From Endomychus coccineus (taxonomy: Eukaryota; Arthropoda; Insecta; Coleoptera; Endomychidae), in the NCBI GenBank assembly GCA_958510875.1, contig OY294068.1, forward strand, positions 200,309,997 through 200,373,996: 64,000 bases of DNA. The letters are read 5' to 3'. The position numbers and the translations under genes were made by a program. A model generated the notes under the pieces. That model was not told the DNA's origin and searched no databases. It saw only the letters and a list, made by a program, of their open reading frames with translations. How positions within the stretch are numbered: the stretch's first letter is position 1; each line of letters starts with the position of its first letter. Positions 5,226 through 56,685 of this stretch are shown piece by piece.

Positions 5226-5850
5226 GTAAGTGTTTATCAACATGCATATGCATGAGTATATAAGGTGTTTACTGCACGTTGCTACAAGGAAGTTTCTTCA
5301 ATACTTTTACATACTTTATTCGTTGCGTTACGTTATTTGCTCCACAACTTTCCATTGGTATAGAATTTTAATCGAAAATAAACGCGGAGCTGCGAGCGTT
5401 TGTCTCGCTTCGCTATGCTCGCTCTACACTGAGGCCTGGCCACCAATAATTATTCATATGCAATAGGGATGAAGCACGAACGCGACAATGAAATAGTGAT
5501 ACCGAAATTTTAAATCGCATAATTCAATGGAATATCAACTAACGAACTAATGAACAATTAATTCTTCATCAACAATTAATTATTGAGCTGATGAATTGAG
5601 TTTATTGAGTTCAAAATAGTTTTTGTTAGAACTTATAGGTAGACGAATGCTTTATCTAGCTAAAGTTACCAAATGGTAACATAGCTAATTAAATATTTAG
5701 AACACGAACGGGAGAATGGCTGACCAATTCTTCTAGTGACCATTGCGGCATAGAGAATAGGCTGGAAAAAAGGAAGTAACATCCCTGTAGCTATGGACAA
5801 TTTTGACGAATGTTTTTAATGTCAAACAATAGTTATGTATTTTTACCAAG
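5226..5850. other. No gene seen
   Basis: Intergenic sequence left of the satellite array; nothing recognisable. Confidence 0.4.
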
Positions 5851-8470
5851 ACTTCTGTATATAGAGAAGACAAATGCCATAAGACCAATGTATAAGCCGG
5901 GCGATCGAGAAGTTTAGTGTCCTTCTCGCACTTATCGTTCTGTTTTTGTCACACACTTTCCTCTCTCCACCGAAAAAAAAGCTATACGACTTCTCGGTCG
6001 CCGGGCTTATACATGGGTCTTATGGCATTTGTCTTCTCTATATATAGAACTCTTTATACTAATGCTTGTTCAATATCAAATCTTGCGATAGACACAGAGC
6101 GGAAGGAGCGAGAAGAACAGTAAAATTCTCGGTCGCCCGGCTTATACATGGGTCTTAAGGCACTTGCCTTCTCGATATATGGAACTCTTTGCTCTGATGT
6201 TTGTTCAATTTTGAATCATGCGGTAAAGACAGAGCGAAAGAAGCGAGAAGGACAGTAAACTTCTCGGTTGACCGGTTTATACATATGTCTTATGGATTTT
6301 GTCTTCTCTATATATAGAACTCTTTGCTCTGACGTTTGTTCAATTCCAAATCATGCGATAAAGACAGAACGGAAGGAGCGAGGAGGACAGTAGCTGGCAC
6401 CCAGGTTGTTATAAGTAGACAACATAGACAAGTAGACAGAACGGAAGGAGCGAGAAGGACAATAAACTTCTCGATCACCAGGCTTATGCATGGGTCTTAT
6501 GGCACTTGTCTTCTATAGATATGGAACTCTTTGCTATGATGTTTGTTCAATTTTTAATTATGCGACAAAGACAGAGCGAAAGAAGCGAGAAGGACAGTAA
6601 ACTTCTCGGTTGACCGGTTTATACATATGTCTTATGGATTTTGTCGTTTCTATATATAGAACTCTTTGCTCTGACGTTTGTTCAATTCCAAATCATGCGA
6701 TAAAGAAAGAACGGAAGGAGCGAGAAGGACAGTAGCTGGCACCCAGGTTGTTATAAGTAGACAACATAGACAAGTAGACAGAACGGAAGGAGCGAGAAGG
6801 ACAGTAAACATCTCGATCACCAGGCTTATGCATGGGTCTTATGGCACTTGTCTTCTATAGATATGGAACTCTTTGCTATGATGTTTGTTCAATTTTTAAT
6901 CATGCGGCAAAGACAGAGCGAAAGAAGCGAGAAGGACAGTACACTTCTCGGTTGACCGGTTTATACATATGTCTTATGGATTTTGTCGTTTCTATATATA
7001 GAACTCTTTGCTCTGACGTTTGTTCAATTCCAAATCATGCGATAAAGAAAGAACGGAAGGAGCGAGAAGGACAGTAGCTGGCACCCAGGTTGTTATAAGT
7101 AGACAACATAGACAAGTAGACAGAACGGAAGGAGCGAGAAGGACAGTAAACATCTCGATCACCAGGCTTATGCATGGGTCTTATGGCACTTGTCTTCTAT
7201 AGATATGGAACTCTTTGCTATGATGTTTGTTCAATTTTTAATCATGCGGCAAAGACAGAGCGAAAGAAGCGAGAAGGACAGTACACTTCTCGGTTGACCG
7301 GTTTATACATATGTCTTATGGATTTTGTCGTTTCTATATATAGAACTCTTTGCTCTGACGTTTGTTCAATTCCAAATCATGCGATAAAGACAGAACGGAA
7401 GGAGCGAGAAGGACAGTAGCTGGCACCCAGGTTGTTATAAGTAGACAACATAGACAAGTAGACAGAACGGAAGGTGCGAGAAGGACAGTAAACTTCTCGA
7501 TCACCAGGCTTATGCATTGGTCTTATGATGGCACTTGTCTTCTATAGATATGGAACTCTTTGCTATGATGTTTGTTCAATTTCGAATCATGCGGTAAAGA
7601 CAGAGAGAAAGAAGCGAGAAGGACAGTAAACTTCTCGGTTGACCGGTTTATACATATGTCTTATGGATTTTGTCTTCTCTATATATAGAACTCTTTGCTC
7701 TGACGTTTGTCCAATTCCAAATAATGCGATAAAGGCAGAACGGAAGGAGCGAGAAGGACGGTAGCTGGCACCCAGGTTGTTATAAGTAGACAACATAGAC
7801 AAATAGACAGTTACGGAAGGAGCGAGAAGGACAGTAAACTTCTCGATCACCAGGCTTATGCATGAGTCTTATGGCACTTGTCTTCTATAGATATGGAACT
7901 CTTTGCTATGATGTTTGTTCAATTTTTAATCATGCGACAAAGACAGAGCGAAAGAAGCGAGAAGGACAGTAAACTTCTCGGTTGACCGGTTTATACATAT
8001 GTCTTATGGATTTTGTCTTCTCTATATATAGAACTTTTTGCTCTGACGTTTTTTCAATTCCAAATCATGCGATAAAGACAGAACGGAAGGAGCGAGAAGG
8101 ACAGTAGCTGGCACCCAGGTTGTTATAAGTAGACAACATAGACAAGTAGACAGAACGGAAGGAGCGAGAATTACGGTAAACTTCTCGATCACCAGGCTTA
8201 TGCATGATTCTCATGGCACTTGTCTTCTATAGATATGGAACTCTTTGCTATGATGTTTGTTCAATTTTTAATCATGCGACAAAGACAGAGCGAAAGAAAC
8301 GAGAAGGACAGTAAACTTCTCGGTCGCCCAGTCTATACATGGGTCTTATGGCTTTTGTCTTCTCTATATATGGAACTTTTTGCTCTGATATTCGTTCAAT
8401 TTCAAATCATGCGACAAAGACAGAGCGAAAGGAGCGAGAAGGACAGTAACTGGCACCCAGGTTGTAATAA
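5851..8470 (+). repeat. Satellite array with 342-bp higher-order unit
   Basis: The basic monomer is about 134 bp, recognised by CTTCTCGGTCGCC, CTTATACATGGGTCTTATGG and GGAAGGAGCGAGAAGGACAG. From about 6261 two monomer types alternate: a plain 134-bp one and a 208-bp one carrying a 74-bp insert (GTAGCTGGCACCCAGGTTG through GTAGACAGAACGG). Together they form a 342-bp higher-order unit, repeated about six times to near 8316. The left edge (5851-5985) is a monomer in inverted orientation facing the array, which makes a hairpin. Short open frames repeating every 342 bp are by-products of the repetition, not genes. Confidence 0.95.
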
Positions 8471-8474
8471 GTAG

Positions 8475-10420
8475 AATAAGGAAAGGGTAGTGCATGTACT
8501 AGAAGATATATGTTTCAGACTGTCTAAGACAAACTACATTGATAGTCACGTGATAGTTCACTCCATAACATAGATATCCTTGTCAATTCAAATAAACTTT
8601 CACATGACATAGAGTATAATTTTACGTCTTTTCTTGCCTTTAACTGTTTCTACGGGTATCAGATGTTTCTGGACAACAGCTGGTGTCATCATAATTATTG
8701 AAACGCGTCTGTAGGCGACTTGTGTAGTATTAAAATCCAATAAAAAACTTTGGACCGGTAGTGTGTGTGTGCATTATGAGATAATGATAATTATTGAATT
8801 ATTGAAGTTGAGAATCATGATTCCGAAACGTCGTCAACACCATTATGACCACACCCGGGACTAAACTACTATGCAGAAAAAAGTGTATCATACAACTCCC
8901 GCGGAATAGAATAGGATTGGAGATATTTAAGCTAAGATATGTAGCAAATTATTTACAATTCATCACGCTTGAATGAACAATAAGCCACGGTCGGCTACCT
9001 GGATATAATATTTGAGGTTACCAATAATTTGAAAATTGGTGGTCTTCTATTTCGGTTATGAAACTTCTCCTAATTTTATTTCGTGCAGAAGTTGATCATA
9101 TAATTCCAATATAGCCGGCACTGGTACCACGTGTACTCTATTTCAGTCACGGTTCGAGTACTTCAAACTACATACTTAATTTCGTAAGTTCTTATGACAT
9201 AGAGTGGTGGAGCAAAAAAAAATTAATTCGTTTTGAATTTAATCGTGTCAGTACTCGTGTAACGGTCGCATTCTTTATTATTTTAACCGTAAACAAATAT
9301 GTCTTATTTCAAGATCACTTCTACCTTATAGGTAATATGTTATTCGGATCTGTTTACTTTGCTGTTTGCATTCTAAAATATAAACATTTCTCGGATGCAT
9401 GATCGCATACATAATATGCAACGAGAATAACATTATAGTTCCTGTAAAGCACGCCCACTAGATACATTTTCTGAAAATTCATCTTTATAATTCCACAAAC
9501 AACTTTGTTGCCGCTTGAATTGCAAGCAATTAATATCCCCCGGCCTTAATTGGGACATGTTAATGGGTCAAGTATGGAACGTGATCGAATGCACTGGAAA
9601 TCCCTAGATATTAAGGAATATTATGAATAATAATTTTGTTGCGATGACAGGCAATCAAACAGGGCGTCGTCGTACATTTAGAACGCTTTCCTCATATTAT
9701 TATTTAAGTCGATAACTTTTCTTACAATTGGGCAGGAATCTTTGGAAGATTACGCTAGAACTGGATGGACGGTGAAAGTAGTGACAGGCGACCAAATAGT
9801 CCTTGTTGAGGATGCCTCGTATCAGGCGATCGACGCTTGAAGGTGAAGAAAATAGCACAAATGTCCGGCCTTTGGATACAAGGCTTCGTCGAGTCATCCA
9901 CTGACGTTAGGGCATTAATAAAGTTAAGCGCGCTCCACACTCCTGTCAGAAATATCCAAGAATCGCCAATAAGTCTTGTCTAGGTCCCCATGCCGTCGTG
10001 TCGGTGTTTTGTGCCCGGATCAAAGAGCTCTCGTGTAGTTTTGTGTTTGGGCGACATCCTTGCTTCCCTCTCTTGATATCTCGATCCCGTCAGACCAAAC
10101 CTAGCTGGTTCCCTGTTTTTTGATATTTCGTTGTCATCAACCATCTTCCCTATACCAACATCTTTTCACTACTTTTTTCCTCGTACATACACGTAATTGT
10201 TATAGGCCACAGATCACAATAATTGTTTCCAAGACGTCCATCTTATAGAGAATATAGAGAGCTGCTCTCGGTCTAGTCCTGTTTCGGCAAATATGTTGGC
10301 CGAGATCTCCCGTCGACAGATCATATGAAAACTGCTTCACAAAAACTTGATTTTCTATTCCGTGCCAAGAGCTACTTTAGATTCCAGCAGTTCCTCATGA
10401 TCTAAAAGGCACAGATTCGA
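8475..10420. other. No gene seen
   Basis: Intergenic sequence. A somewhat more GC-rich part at about 9700-10150 shows no recognisable product on either strand. Confidence 0.4.
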
Positions 10421-23800: not shown

Positions 23801-24175
23801 ATAAATAATCACCCTTATACACTAAAAATACTGTTAAAAGTACTGAGAACCTTTGGGCTACGAAGTGAACTAACTTATGAATCAAATTGTGCTTGTTTAA
23901 ATACTATTTGGGGATAATAATGCAAACAAGTTTTAAGAAATTACGTTTTAGACATTGATACGTTTTTCTGATGATGACGAAAATAATAAGCATATGTGTT
24001 AGTGTGACCTATTTCCCCAGAATTTAAATATAATTATATTCAATAACTGGTACAACGAAATAGTTTTAGACAAGCTTCTAATTTAGTTTATTCCAATGAT
24101 GACTACTTGGTAGCCGAAAGGTCCTCAGTACTTTAAGAGTATTTTTAGTGGATAGTATGCACAGTGTAAACTTTT
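23800..24175 (+). mobile_element. PLE terminal blocks, inverted pair with decayed ribozyme
   Basis: At 23805-23875 and, inverted, at 24085-24165 lie copies of the end-type block also seen at 14570-14640 (AGTACTGAGGACCTTTCGG). Between them, 23940-24040 matches the PLE terminal block of 3.95-4.05 kb, including CTGATGATG. However, the hammerhead is deleted from stem II through GAAA, which leaves GATGACGAAAATAATAAGC. No coding sequence remains. Confidence 0.7.
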
Positions 24176-24274: not shown

Positions 24275-27200
24275 TTAGTTCAGTCGCACGGTCCAAAAGT
24301 TGATTAGAAAATTTGATATGGCTAATTGGTATGTTATCTAATGTTTTTGGGTGCACTAAAAACGGGAAAAATAGTTAAAAAAATTCCTGGAGTGCCGCTA
24401 GAAAAGATATGTTAATTTTCTTGCCGAAAAACTAAAAATATTCCGGATTTTTTCATTTATTTAAATTAATTGTGAAATAAAGCTTCCAATTAAAAATACA
24501 AGACATCGAAGTCATAGATAATTTGAATATGCGTCGAATGAGCAAGGTAGAAGTCATTTGAATGTTATGGGCCCGAGATAAGGGCCATTTTGTGATTTTT
24601 TTCTGTTTACAGAATATTTTGTTTGCGTGGAAAGTTGGCATTTTTATTCTACTTTTCACTGGATTTTTTTTGTCACCAAAATTTGAATTTCGCGAATAAT
24701 CGTCTGAAAATATATATTTTGACTCAAAACAAAATGCATTTTGTAGATTTTAACAAATATTATCTAAAATAACCATCACATGACATTTTGCTATGAATGC
24801 CGAATTTTGGCTGGACTTTGAAATTTTTTTATCTCAGAAAATTAGAGAAATGCTGAGGTTAGAATATTCGAAACGAGAACAAATTCGTGATACTGTTAGA
24901 GATCTTCAATACGCGTATTTTGAGCTATTGTAAATCAATTTTGCTATAGTAGAAGTCTAGATAATCATATAAACGTGTTTGGACCCAGCGTGTAAAACAA
25001 AATTCAATGAAAAGTAGATTACTTTCTCTATCTAAGCCAAGATTGAAAAATATTTTGAGCGAGTTCAAGAAAATAAATTATCATGCAAACTATCATTTTT
25101 CATTTGGCTAAGAGGTCACATTTTTGGATTTATATAGACAGTTATCTACTTTCCACTGAATTTTGGATTTTTATGATGAGCCCAAAATTAGGTCCGCTAC
25201 AGACCCAAACACGTTTACATGAATATCTAGACTTCTACTAGAACAAAATTGCTTTACAATAGCTCAAAATACGCGTATTTTGAGCTATTGTAAACGTGTT
25301 TGGGCCCAGCGTGTAAAACAAAATTCAATGCAAAGTAGATTACTTTCTCGATCTAAGCCAAGATTGAAAAATATTTTGAGCGAGTTCAAGAAAATAAATT
25401 ATCATGCAAACTATCATTTTTCATTTGGCTAAGAGGTCACATTTTTGGATTTATATAGACAGTTATCTACTTTCCACTGAATTTTGGATTTTTATGATGA
25501 GCCCAAAATTAGGTCCGCTACAGACCCAAACACGTTTACATGAATATCTAGACTTCTACTAGAACAAAATTGCTTTACAATAGCTCAAAATACGCGTATT
25601 TTGAGCTATTGTAAACGTGTTTGGGCCCAGCGTGTAAAACAAAATTCAATGCAAAGTAGATTACTTTCTCGATCTAAGCCAAGATTGAAAAATATTTTGA
25701 GCGAGTTCAAGAAAATAAATTATCATGCAAACTATCATTTTTCATTTGGCTAAGAGGTCACATTTTTGGATTTATATAGACAGTTATCTACTTTCCACTG
25801 AATTTTGGATTTTTATGATGAGCCCAAAATTAGGTCCGCTACAGACCCAAACACGTTTACATGAATATCTAGACTTCTACTAGAACAAAATTGCTTTACA
25901 ATAGCTCAAAATACGCGTATTTTGAGCTATTGTAAACGTGTTTGGGCCCAGCGTGTAAAACAAAATTCAATGCAAAGTAGATTACTTTCTCGATCTAAGC
26001 CAAGATTGAAAAATATTTTGAGCGAGTTCAAGAAAATAAATTATCATGCAAACTATCATTTTTCATTTGGCTAAGAGGTCACATTTTTGGATTTATATAG
26101 ACAGTTATCTACTTTCCACTGAATTTTGGATTTTTATGATGAGCCCAAAATTAGGTCCGCTACAGACCCAAACACGTTTACATGAATATCTAGACTTCTA
26201 CTAGAACAAAATTGCTTTACAATAGCTCAAAATACGCGTATTTTGAGCTATTGTAAACGTGTTTGGGCCCAGCGTGTAAAACAAAATTCAATGCAAAGTA
26301 GATTACTTTCTCGATCTAAGCCAAGATTGAAAAATATTTTGAGCGAGTTCAAGAAAATAAATTATCATGCAAACTATCATTTTTCATTTGGCTAAGAGGT
26401 CACATTTTTGGATTTATATAGACAGTTATCTACTTTCCACTGAATTTTGGATTTTTATGATGAGCCCAAAATTAGGTCCGCTACAGACCCAAACACGTTT
26501 ACATGAATATCTAGACTTCTACTAGAACAAAATTGCTTTACAATAGCTCAAAATACGCGTATTTTGAGCTATTGTAAACGTGTTTGGGCCCAGCGTGTAA
26601 AACAAAATTCAATGCAAAGTAGATTACTTTCTCGATCTAAGCCAAGATTGAAAAATATTTTGAGCGAGTTCAAGAAAATAAATTATCATGCAAACTATCA
26701 TTTTTCATTTGGCTAAGAGGTCACATTTTTGGATTTATATAGACAGTTATCTACTTTCCACTGAATTTTGGATTTTTATGATGAGCCCAAAATTAGGTCC
26801 GCTACAGACCCAAACACGTTTACATGAATATCTAGACTTCTACTAGAACAAAATTGCTTTACAATAGCTCAAAATACGCGTATTTTGAGCTATTGTAAAC
26901 GTGTTTGGGCCCAGCGTGTAAAACAAAATTCAATGCAAAGTAGATTACTTTCTCGATCTAAGCCAAGATTGAAAAATATTTTGAGCGAGTTCAAGAAAAT
27001 AAATTATCATGCAAACTATCATTTTTCATTTGGCTAAGAGGTCACATTTTTGGATTTATATAGACAGTTATCTACTTTCCACTGAATTTTGGATTTTTAT
27101 GATGAGCCCAAAATTAGGTCCGCTACAGACCCAAACACGTTTACATGAATATCTAGACTTCTACTAGAACAAAATTGCTTTACAATAGCTCAAAATACGC

Positions 27201-29494
27201 GTATTTTGAGCTATTGTAAACGTGTTTGGGCCCAGCGTGTAAAACAAAATTCAATGCAAAGTAGATTACTTTCTCGATCTAAGCCAAGATTGAAAAATAT
27301 TTTGAGCGAGTTCAAGAAAATAAATTATCATGCAAACTATCATTTTTCATTTGGCTAAGAGGTCACATTTTTGGATTTATATAGACAGTTATCTACTTTC
27401 CACTGAATTTTGGATTTTTATGATGAGCCCAAAATTAGGTCCGCTACAGACCCAAACACGTTTACATGAATATCTAGACTTCTACTAGAACAAAATTGCT
27501 TTACAATAGCTCAAAATACGCGTATTTTGAGCTATTGTAAACGTGTTTGGGCCCAGCGTGTAAAACAAAATTCAATGCAAAGTAGATTACTTTCTCGATC
27601 TAAGCCAAGATTGAAAAATATTTTGAGCGAGTTCAAGAAAATAAATTATCATGCAAACTATCATTTTTCATTTGGCTAAGAGGTCACATTTTTGGATTTA
27701 TATAGACAGTTATCTACTTTCCACTGAATTTTGGATTTTTATGATGAGCCCAAAATTAGGTCCGCTACAGGCCCAAACACGTTTACATGAATATCTAGAC
27801 TTCTACTAGAACAAAATTGCTTTACAATAGCTCAAAATACGCGTATTTTGAGCTATTGTAAATCAATTTTGCTATAGTAGAAGTTTAGATAATCATATAA
27901 ACGTGTTTGGGCCCAGCGTGTAAAACAAAATTCAATGAAAAGTAGATTACTTTCTCTATCTAAGCCAAGATTGAAAAATATTTTGAGCGAGTTCAAGAAA
28001 ATAAATTATCATGCAAACTATCATTTTTCATTTGGCTAAGAGGTCACATTTTTGGATTTATATAGACAGTTATCTACTTTCCACTGAATTTTGGATTTTT
28101 ATGATGAGCCCAAAATTAGGTCCGCTACAGGCCCAAACACGTTTACATGAATATCTAGACTTCTACTAGAACAAAATTGCTTTACAATAGCTCAAAATAC
28201 GCGTATTTTGAGCTATTGTAAATCAATTTTGCTATAGTAGAAGTTTAGATAATCATATAAACGTGTTTGGGCCCAGCGTGTAAAACAAAATTCAATGCAA
28301 AGTAGATTACTTTCTCGATCTAAGCCAAGATTGAAAAATATTTTGAGCGAGTTCAAGAAAATAAATTATCATGCAAACTATAATTTTTCATTTGGCTGAG
28401 AGGTCACATTTTTGGATTTATATAGACAGTCATCTACTTTCCACTGAATTTTGGATTTTTATGATGAGCCCAAAATTAGGTCCGCTACAGGCCCAAACAC
28501 GTTTACATGAATATCTAGACTTCTACTAGAACAAAATTGCTTTACAATAGCTCAAAATACGCGTATTGATGAGCTCTAACAGTATCTCGAATTCGGTTTC
28601 TTTTTGAATATTCCAACATCAAAATTTCTCCAATTTGCCAAGGTCAAAAATTTTCAAAGTTCCGCCAAAATCCGGCATTCATAGCAAAATGTCATTTGAT
28701 GGTTATTTTAGGTGATATTTGTCAAAATCTACAAAATGCATTTTGTTTCGAGTCAAAATATGCATTTTTCAGCGTGAAATCGCGAAATTCGGCGACAAAA
28801 AAAAAACCAGTGAAAAGTAGAACAAAATTGTCAAATTTCCACGCAAACAAAATATTTTTACAATCTCGTTTCTATTTTATAAAAAATATTTCGTAAACCC
28901 TAAAAAGCCCATAATTTTTAAATGACTTTCTACCTTGGCTCATTCGACGCGCATTATATGACTTTGATCTCTTGTATTTTTTTGATTGAGAGGTTTTATT
29001 TCAAAATTAATTCAAATAAACCCGGAAAATGGCGCTTCCAGCGCCATCTGATAAAATAAAAATGCTTTTATTCAATAATCTGTCAAAAAAATGCAGTGAA
29101 AAGTAGAGCAAAAATGCCAACTTTCCACGCAAATAAAATCTTTTTTTTTTCCAAAAATGTTTTGTAAACCGAAAACAAATCACAAAATGGGCCTTATCTC
29201 GGGCCCATAACCTTCAAATGACTTCTACCTTGGCTCATTCGACGCGTATTCCGAGTCTCTGGTATTTTTTTGATTGGGGGCTTTATTTCAAAATTAATTC
29301 AAAAAAATTAAAAACCCTGGAAAATTTCTAGTTTTTTTCCGACATTATGGCCTTAACTATTCTAGCGGCACTTTCTGATAAAATAAAAGTGCTTTTTATT
29401 AATTTAATCTGTTAAAAAAGGATTTGGTCACATTCCAGCCATATCAAATTTTGCCGGATTCTCTGGGATTCCGGCGACCATGCGACTGAACTAA
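24275..29494. mobile_element. 5.2-kb inverted-repeat element with internal palindromic satellite
   Basis: Non-coding element with terminal repeats TTAGTTCAGTCGC(A)(C/T)GGTC at 24275 and, inverted, ending at 29494. Left arm 24275-24910 and right arm 28559-29494 are diverged inverted copies; for example GATACTGTTAGAG and AAAATGCATTTTG occur at mirrored positions. The right arm is longer because a segment of about 290 bp is duplicated (about 28806-29095 and 29098-29390). Between the arms stands a tandem array of eleven monomers. TA borders both ends just inside the terminal TT/AA, so a TA target is possible, but no target duplication is certain. No transposase is encoded. The layout is like Drosophila foldback elements that carry satellites (Tetris is the known example). 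It ends 125 bp from the pgant7 stop codon. Confidence 0.85.
24911..28558. repeat. Tandem array: 8 x 321 bp and 3 x 360 bp monomers
   Basis: Counting from each ACGCGT, monomers start at 24911 (360 bp), then 25271, 25592, 25913, 26234, 26555, 26876, 27197 and 27518 (eight of exactly 321 bp), then 27839 and 28199 (360 bp each). The eight short units look near-identical by eye; the edge units differ at a few sites. Every junction is a perfect 40-bp palindrome centred on CGCG, for example 25254-25293. The 360-bp form has 39 extra bases that continue the palindrome (CAATTTTGCTATAGTAGAAG pairing with CTTCTACTAGAACAAAATTG). Within each unit the two flanks of a second dyad also pair (AACGTGTTTGGG with CCCAAACACGTT). 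Confidence 0.96.
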
Positions 29495-29619: not shown

Positions 29620-31371
29620 CTACCATTTGGGATGAATTTCTTTGAACGTCCATTGCTGATAGGCATTATTTTTATCACAGGGCATCAACGACAGATGAGA
29701 AGTTTGCGGATGAAGGGCCATACACTTTTTATGCACCCTGTGCAACAACGTGTGCGTGTTCTCGTCGTATTGCCAAGGCCCATCGACCGTACCTAACCGA
29801 CAAAAAGCCAATTTGATACCTTGCCCGTCCGCTTCGATACATCGCTCGCCAACCCCCAATTGCCCTTTGGCGTTCAGTCTCATCAGTTGATTGTTACCGA
29901 AACCGTGGCAATGTTGGATGGCCATCAACGTGGGCGGCCCGTGTCCCAACGTATCGACACACTTGTTGACGGCCACGGAACGCATTTCGCCGGAATGTAA
30001 ATTGGGCGGCAGTTCCGGGAACTTGTCCAACACGTCGTACGCCACGTTTTCCATGTACCAGGCGAAACTTTTACATTGTAACTTGTCTTTAAGCGCTAGC
30101 GGTTCAGTTATGTCGCCCATGTCGAGGAACCTGGCCATCGGTTCCCTGGTGTAGAAAAATTCCTTGTACTTGTCGTCGAACCACGTTTCGATCACCCTTT
30201 TGTAGTTGATCGTGATCAGAGGACCTTTTTTCTTTTGCGACAATTTGCCGAAATTGTAAGGCATGAAACTACGGTACACGTGACCTACTCTAGAACAAGG
30301 CACCCACTCGATACTGCCACCGCATTGCCATATTTTGAAACTCAACTCGAAATTTTCACCGCCCCACACTAGCAGCCCAGCATCGTAAGCACCCAGTTCC
30401 AAGAAATACTTTCGATTGACCGCAAACAATCCTCCAGCGTGAGTTGGGCTCTTGTACGGTTCGCTGTTGTGTTGCCTGGTGCTCAATTCACGTTCAGGCA
30501 CTTCATTTTCCTTGTATAACATTCCCCATTCGAATATCCCCCGGAAATGTCTATCTTCACCGTAAACCGGTCGATATTCAAAGGACTTATGATCGATACC
30601 ATCGATAACCGGTACAGTTAAAACCGTGTGATCCCTGTATATCGGGGCCAACAACGGAGGCAACCAATTCGTATTAACTTCACAATGAGCATCGAGAAAA
30701 ACTATAACATCACCTTTGGCCTCTTGAGCTCCCCTAGATCTAGTTCTAATAAGTCCTTCTCGTTGGGTATTCCGAATTAACCTCACTTTCCCATCGAACT
30801 GTTCAATGTATCGATCTAGATCATCTTTCAGATTCTCCTTGTCGCTGAAATCGTCCACTAAAAGCACTTCTTCCAATACGTCCACAGGAGATCGGTTAAT
30901 TACCGAATGCACAGTTCTCAATAACACGGACCAACCTTCGTTGTGAAACACTACGATAACACTGGTTTTTGGTAGATCGACTGGATATTTCCAATGTTTA
31001 CACTCTGCCAATCTGGTATCTAAAATGGTTCGATCCAAGGAAATTTCGTCGGAGCATGCTATGTTCATGCCGTATTCCGATTCGGATTGATCGGCTGTAT
31101 TTTGTTGATCCTGTTTTAGGTGATGCGGACGACCTTTCTCGCCTGGACCGTCGCGATTTTCGATTTCTTTCGGTTCGAAGTTACCTAAACCTTTCAGTAA
31201 CTCGGGTCTTTGTTTGCTGGATAGTCTTGCAGCAATCGAATTTGAAACGGTGTAACTTGGATTCTTTTTGTATGTCGCTAGTAAGTACACTAATGGCAAT
31301 AGAATTACCATCCCCGCGAGGATTCTTATAGCTCTAGTTCGTCTTCCAAAACCGAATCTTACACCTGCCAT
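29620..31371 (-). CDS. Pgant7: Polypeptide N-acetylgalactosaminyltransferase 7 (pgant7/GALNT7-like)
   Basis: Golgi type II membrane enzyme of GT27 that transfers GalNAc from UDP-GalNAc to Ser/Thr of mucin-type glycoproteins; GALNT7 members prefer substrates that already carry GalNAc. The 583-aa frame is complete. A short basic N-tail is followed by one membrane segment (about 16-33), a stem region to about 98, the catalytic domain (about 105-450) and a C-terminal ricin-type lectin domain (about 460-583). Landmarks: YGMNIACSDEISLDRT (100-115), HNEGWSVLLRTVHSVI (143-158), the metal-binding DAH at 227-229, the Gal/GalNAc-T motif VWGGENFELSFKIW (335-348), GHVYR with the third metal-ligand His (364) and the lectin Cys/Asp pair CVD (471-473). 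Length and motifs fit insect pgant7. The start ATG lies in AACATGG, and no intron interrupts the CDS. ATTAAA lies about 66 nt past the stop codon. All expected catalytic residues are present, so it should be functional. Confidence 0.97.
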   Translation of the reverse strand: MAGVRFGFGRRTRAIRILAGMVILLPLVYLLATYKKNPSYTVSNSIAARLSSKQRPELLKGLGNFEPKEIENRDGPGEKGRPHHLKQDQQNTADQSESEYGMNIACSDEISLDRTILDTRLAECKHWKYPVDLPKTSVIVVFHNEGWSVLLRTVHSVINRSPVDVLEEVLLVDDFSDKENLKDDLDRYIEQFDGKVRLIRNTQREGLIRTRSRGAQEAKGDVIVFLDAHCEVNTNWLPPLLAPIYRDHTVLTVPVIDGIDHKSFEYRPVYGEDRHFRGIFEWGMLYKENEVPERELSTRQHNSEPYKSPTHAGGLFAVNRKYFLELGAYDAGLLVWGGENFELSFKIWQCGGSIEWVPCSRVGHVYRSFMPYNFGKLSQKKKGPLITINYKRVIETWFDDKYKEFFYTREPMARFLDMGDITEPLALKDKLQCKSFAWYMENVAYDVLDKFPELPPNLHSGEMRSVAVNKCVDTLGHGPPTLMAIQHCHGFGNNQLMRLNAKGQLGVGERCIEADGQGIKLAFCRLGTVDGPWQYDENTHTLLHRVHKKCMALHPQTSHLSLMPCDKNNAYQQWTFKEIHPKW

Positions 31372-32159: not shown

Positions 32160-33560
32160 CACAGAATCAGTGCTACAGTATGCAACCATGATTACATAAC
32201 AGTGTATTTTGTATTGCTTCTTGTAGGAAATGTACAAAAATATACATTTCATTATTATGCAACCCAAAATACGCAGAAGTGTATCTTGTGTTACATACTC
32301 TATTAGCTTATGACAGCAAGAAACAACAGAAGCTAACTATGCAACTCAAAATACATTGTGGTGTATCCTGTGTTGTATACATTGTTCTGTGTATAAGAAA
32401 TTTACATAAGAAAATACTTGCAGTAGCACGCAACTCTAAATACATAAGGGTGTATCTTGTATTGCATACATCGTTCTGCTTGGAGAAAATAAATAAATTA
32501 GTGCAGTAGTATGCAACTCAATATACGCAAAGGTGTATCATGGATAGCTCATGTCGTTGTTGTTATCCGATCCTTGACGGGAGTTGGGAATCTCTATAAG
32601 TTAACTCTGGAAAAAAAATCAGGAGAGAATCATGGCATTGGTGAACAAAACAAACTTAGAGGTATATTTTATGTTGCATACATTGTTGGTCATGATAGGC
32701 AATTAACATTATTAATCATTGCAGCAGTGCAACCTTATATATACAGGGGTTGTTTTGTATATATTGTTGCTTCTGGTTGAGAATGAGCATCCTATGTGAC
32801 CCTGGTAGGGAATTTCAGAAGATTCGCTACATCATTACGCAACATGGCTGAATTTTCAATTCCTTACCAGGATCACATACGAGCGAGTAGGTATATTTCC
32901 AACCGAATAAATATGCAACACAAATTACACGACCGTGTATTCTGTGTTGCATACATTATTCGGCATGAAATATACCTCCTCGATCTTATGTGATCCTGGT
33001 AGGGAATTGAAAATTTATCTTCAACACTCGAGAAATTTTCGAAGCTTCGTCCCATCAGTAATTTTTAATTTCTCTACCAGGATCACATGAGATCAAGGAG
33101 GTATATTTCCTACCGAGTGATATATGCAACACAAAATACATGCCCGTGTATTTTGTGTTGCATGCATTATTCGGTAGGAAATATACCTCCTACCAGGATC
33201 ACATGAGATCAAGGAGGTATATTTCCTATCGAATGATATATGCAATACAAAATACACCCCTGTGTATTTTGTGTTGCATACATTATTCGATGGGAAATAT
33301 ACCTCCTCGATCTTATGTGATCCTGGTAGGGAATTTAAAATCTAGCCATATTTTTCAACTTCAGCGAAAATTTTAGAAGAGATTCATTGCACTAGTATGC
33401 AACCTGCATTGCCCAGGATGTGATCTTGGTATGGGATTGGAAATTTATTCATATTTACTCTTGAGTAATGACTTCAGAAGATAACCATTGCATTACAGGA
33501 CTGTATTATGGGTTGCATTCATTATTGCTGATGTATACACGCTATCATAATGTCCTGATA
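32160..33560. repeat. Cluster of nested hairpins built on TATGCAAC...GTTGCATA dyads
   Basis: At least eight spaced copies of TATGCAAC(A/T)CAAAATAC followed by the complement GTGTATTTTGTGTTGCATA occur. Three lie inside larger palindromes: 32861-33007, about 33096-33190, and 33189-33333. Their outer arms are TACCAGGATCACAT with GAGATCAAGGAGGTATATTT and the complement. Neighbouring palindromes share arms, so the middle one is truncated where the next starts. The left part (32160-32560) holds more diverged copies roughly 100-130 bp apart. No coding capacity. Confidence 0.9.
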
Positions 33561-39800: not shown

Positions 39801-42381
39801 CTAGCAGACCCGGCCACGCGTTGCTGTGGCTAAGGTTTTTATTATATTACATAGTAGTAAATTATTCAAGGGAAACTGTAGGAGAACACCAGTCATGGGG
39901 ACTACCATGCTTTTTTACACAGATGCCATTTGTTAAAATACATGGCGACCGCCATCCCGCCATCATTGATTTTCTACTACCGTTGATATTGAGCAAAAAT
40001 CAATACAAAAGAAATAAATTTAAATTTTTTTATTTTTTGTATCCAAGTCTGTAACAAATGAGTACATTACAAAGTTGTTAATAAATAACACGTAACACTT
40101 AAACTTATTAATGAGGTAGGTAGGGCAGATAGTTTTAAATCTTTAACAATAATGTTTATTATTTTGAATTATAAATACTTTTAATTTTAATTTAATTTAA
40201 CACTAATCGGTGCACAATATTTTTGGTTAACCTGTCTTTAGCTAACACAAATAGATTTGACGGTTTTCCTACACGTGAACATGCAACGTATAGTTGCCCA
40301 TGAGAAAAACATGGATTTTCCAAATCTAAACCACAATTGGCCATTGTTTGGCCTTGAGACTTGTTTATAGACATGGCAAAAGCTAAACGAATTGGAAACT
40401 GTAACCTTTTGAAGGGTATCGTAGATTCTGATGGTATCATCGGAATACGTGGCAACAGGACCACTTCTCCTTTAAACTTTCCAGTTAAAATGGTAGCTTC
40501 AAGAATATTTCCGGTGATCTTTTTGATGACCAAACGCGTACCGTTTCATAATCGAGGTGGATTTAAATTACGCAGAAGAATAATAGGTGAACCAACCTTC
40601 AATCGAAGATTATGTGGTGGCATTCCAGGTATATCTAGTGAATTTAAAAATTCAATTGGAAAATTTACGCTATCATTTTCATCAACAACAGTGTCGATAG
40701 ATTTAAAAGACATCAGATCGCCTGGTAACAACTGTAGTATCTGGAAGTTAATTTAGTCAACATCAACATTTTTGGCTGCCAAAATAGCCCGATCACTGAG
40801 CCAATTATGATTCAAGTAATTACTCTGTATATCCGGAAAAATACTCTGAATCAATTCGTTTTTTCCCTGAAGAACAGTGCAGAAATTGTCCGGTAGTTTA
40901 ATGTATTGCGTATTTGATTGCAGTTCTATTTTACCGTTCCCAATATCTAGCAATTGTTCAGAAAATAATTGTGCTGATGGATCATTTTGCAATTGTACGC
41001 GCATATTTATGGTCATTCGAAGTGTTTCAACACTTCGCCATAAGAATGATCGTTTTAAACATGCATTAATCTCATCCGCGAAAGTAGAGCGAGGTATAAC
41101 CGGTAAGGTCTGTCGGAAATCACCAGACAAAAGTAAGATAGCACCACTGAAAAGTTTATCATTGCCGTTTAAATCTTGCATAGTTCTATGTAATGCTTCA
41201 AGTGAATATTTGTGAGCCATTGTGCACTCATCCCAAATTATGATTGAACTCTTCCGCAACACTGCAGCTAGTCCACTATTCTTTTTTATGTTACATATTG
41301 CGTTCGGTTTATTATGAATGTCCAAAGGCAGCTTGAATGTTGAATGTGCCGTTCGCCCACCATCTAGCAAAGTAGCCGCAATGCCTGACGATGCAACTGC
41401 CAAGGCGATTTTCCGTTGTGACCGTATTTTAGCAAGAATCAACGATATTAAAAATGTCTTACCGGTTCCACCTGGTGCGTCCAAGAAAAAAAAACCGCCT
41501 TGCTCAGCAGCAACAGTCAGCATAATCCGATCATAAATAATTTTTTGTTCTGCTGTCAGTAATGGACGTGCTATTATGACACATTGAAATGAGGAGTGCA
41601 AAATAATTTTTAATAGAGGTTGAATAAAAATAATGAAAAAAAAATATTTGTGCAATTATTGAAAAAGTGTAAGAAGCTTTGTACCGCTTTTTTATATGTA
41701 TATTAATTAACTTTTGATCCTGGAGCCTTGAGTACCTCATAATCATCAAAATACATATATCGTACATCGTGATTTGATGTGTAGCAAATATATAATAATA
41801 TAACTATGTGATAATACTTACATGTATATACTTTAATGTAAGATTGTTAAATAATGAAGCACTAATAATAAAAAAGCAACAAGAATTCAACTGTATTACT
41901 CTTACTATAATATGAATTCAATTTATAATTCAGTCTAAATAACACGTGGCCGGCTATGGTAATACCAAAAATTAAGAAAGTAAGAACAATTGAACTTCAC
42001 TGTATTGCGTTTACTACGAAATAAATTTAAATTATACTTTAGCCTCAGCAACACGTGGTGGTTATGCCATTAAATTGTAGCTTATGTAAAACGTTAGTAC
42101 TTTTAACACTGCGCCATCTGTTAGAATACTTACTCAATCCAGTCAACAGATACCGCCATCTGTTAGAATCGTTTGGGACTGACAGATAATTGTGACTGAC
42201 GAATAATCAACAAATAATTTGCAATAAAATAATATTGCGGCTATAAATTGAGATGTGAGCTATCCTATCTGTTAAGTTAGATCGAACTGCACACGGTGTG
42301 CAAATTTGATTGAAATCGGTTAAGTAGTTTAGGAGTCTATAGCGGACAAACAACGTGACACGTAATTTATATATATTAAGA
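39801..42381 (-). mobile_element. Helitron with exact ends, internally truncated
   Basis: Minus-strand Helitron. The 5' end is TCTTAATATATATAAATTAC at 42381, followed by the widespread insect start (CGTGTCACGTTGTTTGTCCG). The 3' end is a GC-rich hairpin, CAGCAACGCGTGGCCGGG, then TCTGCTAG ending at 39801. It sits between A (42382, minus strand) and T (39800), the canonical A|T target. Inside are only a broken helicase C-terminal two thirds, and a degenerate tandem duplication of about 110 bp near the 5' side (about 41880-42075). The Rep nuclease domain is missing, so it is non-autonomous. Confidence 0.94.
40192..41571 (-). pseudogene. Helitron Pif1-like helicase, two nonsense codons
   Basis: A single reading frame runs from about 41571 to the stop at 40192, broken only by TAA at 40753-40755 and TGA at 40546-40548. 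Motifs in order: Walker A GGTGKT (about 41472-41455), Walker B IIWDECTM (about 41232), LSGDFRQTLPV, then HNLRLKVGSPIILLRNLNP, the motif V-like INKSQGQT and the motif VI-like YVACSRV. These are the SF1 Pif1 signatures of Helitron helicases, which unwind DNA in rolling-circle transposition. The frame enters abruptly at ARPLLTAEQ, so the N-terminal helicase part and Rep domain are deleted. Confidence 0.93.
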
Positions 42382-52084: not shown

Positions 52085-52810
52085 GACACTTCCTTAAAAT
52101 GTTTCAAACATGCAATTTCACTTGTTATCTGGGAGTTTTTGGGATCGCTGATCATGATTCTGATGTTTAAATAATGCTATAATTTACCTGAGGAACAGCA
52201 TGACCTGCTTGTTACCTCATCCCTGAAGAATTTACGGTATAATTCGCTTTAAAATGAAATTAAATTTTAAAACCAATTATAACAAACCGTAATAAAAGCA
52301 CCTTGAGGTAGGTTCCCACATTTCAATTCCCAGTAGTTTCTGAGATACGACTGTATTTTTTTTTTCAAACGGAAATATGTACGAAAGCATGCTTTTTATG
52401 GCTGCACCAAAGTTGTTCCTCGGCAAATTTGCTATAACATGAATACAAAATTTTCCATAAACTTTTACGAAAAAGTGTAAGCGATTTTTTTTCTGTGACA
52501 AGTATATTTCTGAAAATTTAGATACGGTAAAAAATGAGAGTAGAAAGTTAGAATTTGTTTATTCATTTAAATTATTAATGAATATCATCTCCTATAAAAG
52601 TCGTTTTTAGTGTGCAATTGATTATTTTAATTACTTTGTGGCGAAAAAATTGGCAATAAATATCTTTTGTTGTTGATAAAACAGTGTTTATTTTCATCGT
52701 CTCGAGTCATCTATAATCTCCTTGATTTGTCGAAGTAACTGAAAACCGAAACACCTAATTTAATTATATTATTGTTATATTAATTTGCTGTAGATTGAAA
52801 AATAAAAAAA
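52085..52810. repeat. Dispersed repeat, partly inverted relative to 54520-54750
   Basis: CCTCATCCCTGAAGAATTTA (52213 on) recurs in the same orientation at about 54660. The segment 52365-52475 (GGAAATATGTACGAAAGCATG, CCAAAGTTGTTCCTCGGCAA) is the inverted counterpart of 54530-54655. These copies bracket the Helentron at 52811-54447. Family unknown; the rest is AT-rich. Confidence 0.5.
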
Positions 52811-54447
52811 ACGTGTGGCACTCGGGGACTGCCGCGGTGAAGCTATTGCATAGTATTTTTTCTCAACTTATGCAATTATAATTATTTATTTATTTTTAAT
52901 TTATGCAGTATTTTTTTTTCTTTGATATTAATTCAAGTTACACTTTTTGAGCGTGGTGACCGATAAGAAAACAAATTTTTTTCTTTTATTGAATAAATGA
53001 GAAGTTAATATCGTTTAAAATATTTTAATTATCTTACAATACATGTAGGTTATTCAGGAATTTGTTATCATTGAAACTATAGGTTTATGGTAACTGAAAT
53101 AAGAGACATAAGTTTGAGACTTGATATCCTCTAAATATCTGGAAAATACCGCATCAATGGTGGCCCCATATTTTGTTGTGGATTCTTGTGGATCATTATT
53201 CATTTTCAAATTCAATTTTTCCGAAAGAAAAGTTATCAACCGCTCTGATTTTTTATCAGCGGAGTTGATGTTGAAATCACCAGCCAAGATAAGTGGAAAT
53301 TTATTACCATTTGTACCAAGTATTTTCGACCCTTCTTCAATGTACTCCAGTAAAGTGCGATGAATAAAATGCTCTACCTCGTCCAATTGTGGATTCGGAG
53401 AAATGTAAATTGCTACCATGACTATGTGTAGGCCATTTCTAAGTTTGCATAAGCACGCACAAATATCTCAAAAAAATGAGCGCCTAACATTAACATCGCT
53501 AACGTGTGCAATATTTATTTCAATATTCGGAGTCATAATATTAGTTACATTATTATTATTTTGGTAAATAGCTACCCCACTTTTTGGAACAGTATCTCGT
53601 TTGAATTGAACAATACAATTGAAATTAGGTATTTCAATCGGATTATCATGCGCCATGCAAGATTCGGTAAGAAGTAACACATTTGTTTGTCTCGTAACTG
53701 AATCTTGTAAATCGTGTTTGTGACTATTTAGACTTTGGCAATTGAAAGTCATTATTGAAATGCCATTTCTATTCCTAAGGAAATCTAAGATACTTTGAGC
53801 TGTCGTCTGAACACTATTTAAAGGCAGTCTTTTGAATTTTTGCAACAAAGATGCAGTCGATGCAGCTTGCCTTCTATTATTATAAAACTTGAATGTAGAA
53901 TTATCGTTTTTTGTCTAGATATACAATTTTTCAATATTAGTCACCCGAGAGAGCGCAACATAAACGAGTTCCTGTTATTTTTCGTTACGGAATTTCTTGA
54001 TTCGGTCGCAGCGCTCAAAGCCCGCGATAAAAGCTATATGCAATTATATGCAATAGCTTAATAGAAACAGGTACTCTCAGGTCTCTGCTACGCGCGTCTA
54101 ACGTATAAACTCTAACTGACGCGTAGCGAGCTTCTAGAGGCATATGTCAAAATGATTTCGTTCGTAGCTAATTACATAGGACGTCTGGAGTTCATGCAAT
54201 TAAGTTTTTAGATAATTCGAACCTTCTAATTTCGATAGGCGACGTGAAAATCTCGGAGTCTAAACCGCTAGAGTGTTATAACATTCGTATAAAATAGCGA
54301 AATTTCTCACTTTTAGAAACTTCAAATTAATTAATTAATTTGACACATGTTAGGTGTTTAGGTCTTACATTATTTTTCGTTACGGAATTTCTTGATTCGG
54401 TCGCCGCGCTCAAAGCCCGCGATAAAAACTATATTGCAATAGCTTAA
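52811..54447 (-). mobile_element. Helentron, copy 1, with two tandem 5' ends
   Basis: On the minus strand the 5' end is TTAAGCTATTGCAATATAG at 54447. A module of about 390 bp follows, then a second 5' terminus (about 54060-53970, including CGAATCAAGAAATTCCGTAA) fused to the last helicase motif and the endonuclease. The 3' end is CTATGCAATAGC...CGCGGCAGTCCCCGAGTGCCACACGT at 52811. The subterminal GCTATTGCATA and TATGCAATAGC form an inverted pair, as in Helentrons (Helitron2). Rep and most of the helicase are missing. Confidence 0.87.
53054..53960 (-). pseudogene. Helentron helicase end plus endonuclease, copy 1
   Basis: Reads ELVYVALSRVTNIEKLYI (last Pif1-type helicase motif), a TAG, then LQKFKRLPLNSVQ and the endonuclease: ISIMTFNCQSLNSHK (motif 1), VLLLTESCMAHDNP (catalytic Glu), IPNFNCIVQFKRDTV, a TGA after VNVRRSFF, VAIYISPNPQLDEVEHF, LILAGDFNINSADK (GDFN) and the C-terminal SYHKPIVSMI. 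Only two nonsense codons break this frame. Endonuclease/exonuclease/phosphatase-type nucleases of this sort are a hallmark of Helentrons. Confidence 0.87.
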
Positions 54448-56285
54448 AATTAATTTTTTTTTAGTTGAAACAACATAGTGATTAGGTTGTTGATGAGGAA
54501 TATGGAAATACTTCCATGGACTCATACATGGAAAAGCTTATGGAAAATTTGGATTCAATATAATGTCATATTATAGCAAATTTTCTGAGGAATAACTTTG
54601 GTGCTGCTCAATTTTCCATAAAAAGTATGCTCTCATACACATTCCCGTTTGAAAAAACCTCATCCTTGAAAAATTTACGGTTTCATTCGCTCTGAAATGA
54701 AATAAAACCTGGAACCTAGGGATGGTTAGTGTCGCTGATCACGATATTGTTGTTGAAATCGTAATGAAATGCACTAGGAGGTGGTAATCCACAAGTTGTG
54801 TAGATATATAATATATTTTTTTTACAAAATTAAAATAATATTCGATATATTTTTTCAAAATTTTATGAACAGTATAATTACTCATTTTTAGCAAGTAGTG
54901 TTAAGGTGAATACATTTTTTTCTATTAAAAATGAGAATATTGTAATACTGATCTTTGAGTTTAGATATGAAAAGTATGAAAAAATAATTGATTGAGAGAA
55001 GTTGGTAAAAAGGAAAGGAACCTATTGTGAAGATTTCTCATTTACAGATGACAAAAACAATCATTATATACAATGATCGATCATCCTTATGTCCAAATGA
55101 ATCTACTAAATTATGATCAATATTATCTTCTTCATACTGACATGGGGAAGGTGGAAACAAGAAAAAACTCCAATGGCTCACACGATGTTTTATCAACATT
55201 ATAGGCTTTCATTTTGTGTAGTCAAAAGAACGGTTTACCAATTCAAAAACAAGTACTGAATGGTCTTGCAAAAAGTAGTTATATTGCATATGGTGAAATT
55301 ATTTCCATTCATTGTTCGGACAGAAAACATTAACCTTTACAATAACAATAACGCAAAGGTTTGCATCTGTTCCATTTTTATAGTAAATTCGTCGTAAAAA
55401 TTCTGATTTGGACATTTGATTCGATAAAGCCCGCTCATAAAAATAATAAACCTATATCCAGTTAACGGTACACCAATGTTTTAGTCTTGTTCCAATAAAC
55501 TTGAATTTTTCCAAGTCAGCTTTTCTCTACTTTTATCGCTTAATACCGGAGGAGATACGTTGGACCAGTAATCTCTAAAGTGATACATCTAGCACATTTC
55601 AACGCGAACTGGTGTAAAAACCGAAAGGTCGGACGAAAGTTTTTCACATGTGAGGCGATTTGCTGGTTTAATCTTCGACCGATGTAACAGGAAGTAGAAT
55701 TGATGGTGACTGAAATTACTTTTTGGATATCCATGTCCAATCTAATATAAAAAATGAGGATTTCGTCGATTTTTATACGAACAAAGGAGCTCTCCGGACA
55801 TGCGGCCGTTACAAGTGAAATACAGGATGTCCGCAAATTAAGAGGGAATAATGCAGGGGGTGATTCTACCTGAAAAATTAATATCACAATTGCCCCATAG
55901 CATTTTTTAGTAAACTAGAAAGTAAAGGAATTATTGGACTTCAAAGATAATTTTTTATTCCTATTGATTTGACGTTTTACTTGGTGTAAATTCATTTCAA
56001 AAATACAATATAGAATAGTGAAACAAATATCATCGTCTTCAATATTGTTAGATAGTTCTTGACCTTCCTCCTGAATATACGATAAGTCCGGAGAGTAAAA
56101 TTTGATTGAATTCTATAAGATGGTTCGCGAAATTTTATTTGTGCTTTTTAAGGCGGTAGCTTGGTAATGAACAAGTTTCTTCCGGTTTGTCCTAAGTAAG
56201 TGCCACTATAATCGTGGTCTGAATTATACTTGTTATTTACGATATCTTTGACAGGTCACCTTATAATTTCCAAGTCCAAACAGAC
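54448..56285. other. No gene; dispersed repeats
   Basis: 54520-54750 is the repeat described at 52085-52810. 55175-55230 (GGCTCACACGATGTTTTATC, AACATTATAGG) resembles 45690-45740. 55540-55830 ends in ATACAGGATGTCCGCAAATT, like a TIR-type repeat end. No coding region recognised. Confidence 0.4.
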
Positions 56286-56289
56286 GTTT

Positions 56290-56540
56290 TTCGGATGAGC
56301 AGGAGCCAAGATATTAATATAAATGTATTTGGGATTCTAGAGGACAAATTATGGGACTTTTATGGAAAAACTTCAAATTAATCGAAGAATAATAAAGCTA
56401 ACAAATGCTAAAAATGCGTATTCCCACGTCTTTTTGAAAATATTTGAAATGAACTTCTCTAGTTTTTCCAAAAGGTCCCATAACCGGGCGCGCTAGAGGC
56501 CCAAATACATTTATATCAATATCTCGGCTCCCACTCAACG
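56290..56540. repeat. Foldback hairpin related to the 321-bp satellite monomer
   Basis: Arms 56300-56370 and 56455-56532 are imperfect complements (CCAAGATATTAATATAAATG against CATTTATATCAATATCTCGG; GGACTTTTATGGAAAAACT against AGTTTTTCCAAAAGGTCCC). The right arm, GCCCAAATACATTTATATCA then ATATCT, lines up with GCCCAAACACGTTTACATGA then ATATCT of the satellite at 25-28.5 kb. Confidence 0.65.
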
Positions 56541-56685
56541 GCTCAAAAGAAGCGTTCCAGGAAAGTCTTCGGGCCAAATTGTTGCTTTCGGATAAAAAAG
56601 GTTGAGTTTTGAATTCGACATATAAGACACACATGGATTTTGTTTTGGCTTGCGAAAAATGCCATCGCTTTATGATATTTTAATT

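Follow-up and report, generated by a model that had tools for sequence, protein, structure and literature searches.

The DNA analysed here, referred to as the window, is a stretch of 64,000 nucleotides from the beetle Endomychus coccineus (assembly GCA_958510875.1, contig OY294068.1, positions 200,309,997 to 200,373,996 of the forward strand). It contains, next to the gene pgant7, a foldback transposon whose centre is occupied by eleven head-to-tail copies of a palindromic unit, and which a preliminary description, made from the sequence alone, had presented as a large palindromic element that carries its own satellite. By comparing this element with its relatives in the host genome, we find that it belongs to an old family of non-autonomous foldback DNA transposons, and that the repeated unit is the central palindromic apex of such an element. 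Most likely, the array arose at its present site once the element had inserted, and was not carried to the locus by a satellite-bearing element.

Architecture of the element and its array

The features of the element, numbered from the first nucleotide of the window, are as follows.

24276..24293, + strand: left terminal inverted repeat of 18 bp, TAGTTCAGTCGCACGGTC, shared with the ends of dispersed copies; preceded by ATT
24276..24913, + strand: left foldback arm, composed of terminal part E1, middle part B and inner part A
24908..24919, no strand: left apex border AATACGCGTATT, a 12-bp palindrome found at both apex borders in many single-apex copies
24914..28561, + strand: eleven apex monomers in head-to-tail order (360, 8 x 321, 360 and 360 bp)
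25253..25294, no strand: first of ten perfect 42-bp palindromic junctions
After bases 25594, 25915, 26236, 26557, 26878, 27199, 27520, 27841 and 28201: the other nine junctions
25274..27841, + strand: eight 321-bp monomers, m2-m9; m2-m8 identical; 39 bp fewer than the 360-bp units
28556..28567, no strand: right apex border AATACGCGTATT
28562..29493, - strand: right foldback arm; outer part with a diverged tandem duplication
29476..29493, - strand: right terminal inverted repeat; followed by ATA

The ends of other copies read TAGTCCAGTCGCACGGTC with a variable preceding base; the outer base T was therefore excluded, and the element limits were set at 24276-29493. Comparison of the left end, TTAGTTCAGTCGCACGGTC, with the reverse complement of the right end, TTAGTTCAGTCGCATGGTC, reproduces the terminal repeats of the preliminary description (13 bp exact, 19 with one mismatch), 18 bp of which lie within the element, and the exact 13-mer is present in the window only at the two element ends. 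The two diverged inverted arms that it had proposed are likewise present, being 86% complementary over their inner 301 bp and 77% identical over 474 columns in a longer alignment. The right arm exceeds the left in length owing to a diverged tandem duplication in its outer part (offsets 286-327 bp), and positions 29047-29090 within it are a remnant of the terminal part. Long inverted arms thus make up most of the element, as in foldback (FB-like) transposons. The window copy has no transposase open reading frame (ORF), the only ORFs of at least 60 amino acids (aa) being 66 and 68 aa long, and a scan of the window against Rfam at gathering thresholds gave no match.

The array (Tandem Repeats Finder score of its 321-bp repeat, 5760) contains, as had been described, eleven head-to-tail monomers with a near-identical centre. 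There are no differences among m2-m8. Relative to these, and leaving aside a 39-bp gap, substitutions number 3 in m1, 1 in m9, 3 in m10 and 4 in m11. The 39 bp by which the 321-bp form is shorter than the 360-bp form fit a loss by deletion between direct TAAA repeats, and the eight copies of the short form occupy the interior while older forms remain at the edges, a layout that matches the expectation from unequal exchange. The earlier claim that every junction is a perfect 40-bp palindrome stands for the ten inner junctions, but their length is 42 bp, and at the two outer borders of the array the perfect palindrome is reduced to its central 12 bp, AATACGCGTATT. Since a palindromic unit is repeated head to tail, every junction is palindromic, and no further cause is needed. 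The 28-bp tandem junction sequence is perfect in the window, compared with 8 mismatches at the window's own single borders.

A separate inverted-repeat element of approximately 340 bp (23816-24154), with 51-bp arms that are 88% identical, directly adjoins the foldback element.

Relatives in the host genome

The host assembly searched comprises 906 Mb in 129 contigs. One 321-bp unit was searched against it, and 40 of 560 first-look candidates were scored, corresponding to the window array and 39 other loci; with the left arm as query, 40 of 814 first-look candidates were scored. Of the 39 non-window apex loci, 32 were retrieved and inspected, and the other 7 were judged by their match rows. Retrieved loci carry numbers with the prefix L, and counts of distinct loci exclude the window itself (L001-L011 and L041) as well as repeat retrievals of the same copy (L044, L051, L053, L054, L055 and L059).

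The best match per locus to the 321-bp unit was 76-86% identical in the 39 other loci, with shorter secondary matches reaching 91% (79 bp) and 92% (36 bp), and apex matches were found on both strands in 34 of these loci. The top-scoring non-window match of the left arm was 81% identical, some shorter ones reaching 87%. Retrieved relatives usually show, in whole or in part, the order E-B-A-apex-A'-B'-E', although many are incomplete and some are rearranged; those with both ends measure 1167-1715 bp, excluding the doubtful L031 (1925 bp). They are non-coding, carry the same ends as the window element (TAGTCCAGTCGCACGGTC), and contain a single apex at the meeting point of the two arms, to which L024, L032 and L060 add partial or rearranged apex pieces. 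The majority row of 21 dispersed apexes, among which one unit that was probably mis-cut was retained (L052, 72%), is 406 bp long and 89% self-complementary over its full length. The inverted arms and shared ends of these relatives support the earlier identification as a foldback DNA element, and the possibility raised with it, that the terminal repeats would never be found at the ends of other genome copies, does not hold.

What distinguishes the window copy is its array. Complete apexes arranged head to tail were present in none of the 39 other scored loci, and the tandem junction in none of 47 distinct retrieved loci, where the closest match to the 28-bp sequence had 6 mismatches, near the value of the window's single borders. 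Among the 40 loci scored of 560 candidates, there was one array of the apex unit, that of 11 units, and no free array was seen. The border word joined to the apex start had no match in the databases viral_contigs and genome_contigs. A single, unpaired match of the 18-mer end pattern in a viral contig (L062) is probably due to chance and was kept out of all counts.

Target site duplication and superfamily

The flanks of dispersed copies were paired twice. In the first pairing, none of 16 rows showed an exact 8-bp target duplication, three of these rows (L026, L031 and the second row of L034) being judged spurious. The second pairing, made around the apex, yielded 16 end pairs, including the doubtful L031 (left end with 4 mismatches, 1925 bp). 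Exact 3-bp duplications were found in 8 of these 16 pairs (CTT, CTG, TAT, AAT, GAC, ATA, TAC and TTA), compared with 0.6 expected from mispaired flanks, and an exact 4-bp duplication in none of the 16. The family thus shows the target site duplication of a transposing foldback element, with a length of 3 bp; a TA or 8-bp duplication had been considered first and was rejected in view of the paired flanks. Nor do the flanks show the duplication of 8-10 bp expected of a Mutator-type foldback element such as Tetris. Superfamilies with a 3-bp target duplication are PIF/Harbinger, CMC/EnSpm, Zator and Academ. The Harbinger target is TWA, which the duplications CTT, CTG and GAC do not fit.

Palindromic words at the apex borders

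Of 42 distinct loci, 21 carry the word AATACGCGTATT on both sides of the apex with no more than 2 mismatches; in 16 of these 21 each side has 1 mismatch or none, and in 4 both sides match exactly. Although the arms that hold them are inverted, the two copies of this word are direct repeats, since it equals its own reverse complement.

Direct repeats spanning the centre were examined in 14 single copies, with limits set by hand that are approximate for L023, L027 and L050. Such a repeat of at least 10 bp was found in 13 of the 14, and in 8 of those 13 the longest one holds a palindrome of at least 8 bp. Taking all centre-spanning repeats together, palindromes of at least 8 bp occur in 27 of 56, compared with 4.1% of random 11-mers. 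AATACGCGTATT therefore appears sufficient and well placed to have started the array, without being unique in this respect.

Age and origin of the array

A tree was built from the 21 dispersed apexes together with the 11 units of the window. All window units fall into one clade (support 1.000), whose stem measures 0.096; distances within the array reach no more than 0.022, and the closest dispersed unit lies 0.109 away. These branch lengths suggest that the array is much younger than the copy that hosts it. The grouping of the window units in a single clade with a long stem makes late growth of the array, within an old copy already at this site, the most likely history. The idea of an element that carries its own satellite as a mobile package is thus not borne out, given that its relatives are seen with a single apex and its monomers are one recent clade.

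Tandem duplication has also affected other members of the family at other places. L061 contains an independent array (517-1363) of seven units of approximately 120 bp, derived from an arm segment present a single time in each arm of the other copies; L014 has a tandem duplication with an offset of approximately 755 bp that includes flanking DNA; and L024 has a partial apex duplication. Such recurrence, at positions that vary from copy to copy, agrees better with local events in old copies than with one satellite-bearing lineage.

We therefore propose, with a probability of roughly 0.78, that this is an old foldback copy whose palindromic apex underwent head-to-tail amplification at this site long after the copy had inserted, by way of its border word. 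The family, its ends and target duplication, the lone apex of the relatives seen, the border words, the junctions, the single clade and the 39-bp deletion can be read from the sequence; the recombination steps that we infer, with their order and timing, are the following. The ancestral copy would have been a single imperfect palindrome of approximately 1.2-1.7 kb, of the order E-B-A-apex-A'-B'-E', inserted with a 3-bp target duplication and having as its apex the palindrome of approximately 400 bp typical of the family. A word that equals its own reverse complement has the same orientation in both arms, and its two copies are thereby direct repeats that enclose all the DNA between them. The two copies of AATACGCGTATT could then have served for replication slippage or unequal sister exchange, which would have duplicated the apex and created exactly the observed junction, giving the order arm-word-apex-word-apex-word-arm that is seen in the window. 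Once two units were present, ordinary unequal exchange or conversion may have extended and homogenised the array, and a 39-bp deletion at the TAAA repeat would have produced the 321-bp form, which then spread through the interior.

Several observations weigh against this interpretation. The scored candidates were 40 of 560 for the apex and 40 of 814 for the left arm, so that another multi-apex copy could exist, and partial or rearranged extra apex pieces occur in L024, L032 and L060. The flanks of the window element, ATT on the left and ATA on the right, differ by one mismatch, and 8 of the 16 dispersed pairs are without an exact duplication. One or both border words are missing or degraded in 18 of the 42 loci, and a further 3 have no apex match. 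In the 13 single copies with a centre-spanning repeat, the longest one is AATACGCGTATT, whole or in part, in just 3 (L023, L028 and L040), and in 5 it lacks an 8-bp palindrome; L050 has a 16-bp palindromic word longer than AATACGCGTATT. Finally, the borders of the duplications in L061 and at 33074-33307 of the window show, by eye, only short shared stretches other than AATACGCGTATT, which is therefore not needed for tandem duplication in general.

Alternative explanations

Four other explanations were weighed. The array could have arisen from an apex circle that was cut out at the two border words, copied in rolling-circle fashion and reinserted through homology. This predicts the same junctions, and the seven identical units would fit a single burst; however, no circle-specific mark is seen in the sequence, and the graded differences of m1, m9, m10 and m11 are those expected under unequal exchange, which makes this route improbable. 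Transposition of an element with the array already inside appears quite improbable. In its favour, the window copy has its two ends, an almost perfect target duplication and an array inside. Against it, neither a complete-apex array (0 of 39 other scored loci) nor a tandem junction (0 of 47 distinct retrieved loci) occurs in the relatives, and the divergence within the array, at most 0.022, is much smaller than the stem of 0.096. It is very improbable that the apex is an independent palindromic miniature inverted-repeat transposable element (MITE), inserted repeatedly nose to tail into one border site of a host element. The apex has inverted ends of its own, and a 242-bp palindrome at 56296-56537 has 45-59 bp in common with the apex ends at 75-80% identity; yet the apex halves of the relatives extend the inverted symmetry of the arms at a constant place, and separate insertions would not make eleven units each other's closest relatives. 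That the monomer count is an assembly artefact is equally hard to credit, for although seven identical 321-bp units (2247 bp) are hard for short-read assembly, a 203-Mb contig in a 129-contig assembly suggests long reads, diagnostic variants mark distinct units at both array edges, and the existence of the array is independent of its count.

Neighbouring gene and other features of the window

The neighbouring gene lies 126 bp from the foldback element.

29620..31371, - strand: pgant7, polypeptide N-acetylgalactosaminyltransferase 7, intact ORF of 583 aa

The best named matches of its protein are beetle proteins, the top one, from Zophobas morio, being 83% identical. On the pgant7 strand, the first AATAAA signals past the stop codon lie inside the element (29400 and 29287), with ATTAAA signals before the element (29554 and 29511). 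Judging from these signals, the pgant7 transcript might end in or near the element.

The window contains further palindromic and repeated DNA. A second palindromic element (32841-33352) carries two head-to-tail copies of its hairpin tip, each of 116 bp, at 33074-33307. The palindrome at 56296-56537 may be a distant relative of the apex or have a motif in common with it. The region 5848-8475 holds a 342-bp tandem array of 7 copies, with a substructure of 135 + 207 bp, and beside it, at 5848-5953, a stretch of this repeat in inverted orientation. The region 52800-58287 holds an inverted pair of 1.68 kb (52800-54453 and 56680-58287, 91% identical) with ORF fragments, one of which has a weak likeness, just below the cut-off, to the Exo_endo_phos_2 endonuclease domain. 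A 300-aa fragment of a PIF1-like helicase lies at 40753-41655 and may derive from a Helitron. Elsewhere in the genome, tandem arrays lie near three copies of the foldback family (L025, 4880-5879, 317 bp; L027, 4098-5400, 333 bp; L045, 1-1031, 141 bp), and these have no match in the other retrieved loci from L012 on or in the window.

Comparison with known systems

To our knowledge, the origin of satellite monomers with large internal palindromes is an open question, and the locus described here illustrates a simple route by which palindromic satellite DNA could arise. With single-apex relatives abundant in the same genome and a young array, its first step can be read, including the word used, the form of the ancestor and the later deletion. 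A testable rule follows, namely that the borders of arrays should coincide with palindromic words of the foldback arms at a rate above chance.

The preliminary description had likened the element to transposon-to-satellite cases such as Tetris, and its foldback structure and internal tandem repeats support the comparison. Tetris/TIR-220 of Drosophila virilis is a non-coding foldback element with internal tandem repeats that constitute an emerging satellite; two of its allelic copies differ in repeat number, and 202 repeats, spread over 25 contigs, lie next to other parts of Tetris (PMC4079207). Its repeats lie inside the terminal inverted repeats (TIRs), and its target duplications of 8-10 bp led to the suggestion of Mutator (PMC4079207). 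The window element is likewise a non-coding foldback with internal tandem repeats, but it amplifies the apex, while the part of the Tetris report considered here does not describe the repeats as palindromic tips; it also differs in its 3-bp duplication and in that one copy with complete extra apexes was seen.

In Xenopus, the MITEs Xstir and miDNA4 contain tandem repeats derived from the inside of an inverted-repeat element, present as a single monomer or as an array, and the proposed origins are stem-and-loop replication for Xstir and short direct repeats for miDNA4 (PMC12628747, PMC9659126). Here too an internal part of an inverted-repeat element is tandemly repeated, although the sections of these reports drawn on describe no palindromic apex as the monomer and invoke no self-palindromic border word. 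Satellites seeded by inverted-repeat elements are thus already known, and the new part would be the route by way of an apex and a palindromic word. No report of foldback-apex amplification through a self-palindromic border word was found in open-access titles and abstract beginnings, a survey in which few searches were aimed at this question and most subscription journals lay outside.

The closest likeness in the form of the monomer is found among beetle satellites. TmSat2 of Tribolium madens has a 704-bp monomer with a palindrome of approximately 600 bp and occupies large, putatively pericentromeric regions; T. brevicornis has a 1061-bp dyad-symmetric satellite; and long dyad symmetries within satellite repeats are called 'not so common' in the portion of the T. 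madens paper cited here (PMC13081366). As in the window array, the monomer itself is a large imperfect palindrome; however, these are abundant satellites of other species, and the likeness drawn here is one of description only. It is conceivable, if unlikely, that foldback elements are built-in satellite seeds, in which any self-palindromic arm word forms direct repeats on either side of the tip and so allows its tandem duplication, and finally satellites with palindromic monomers; the window locus would then represent the first stage of this process, and TmSat2 and the T. brevicornis satellite its possible end products.

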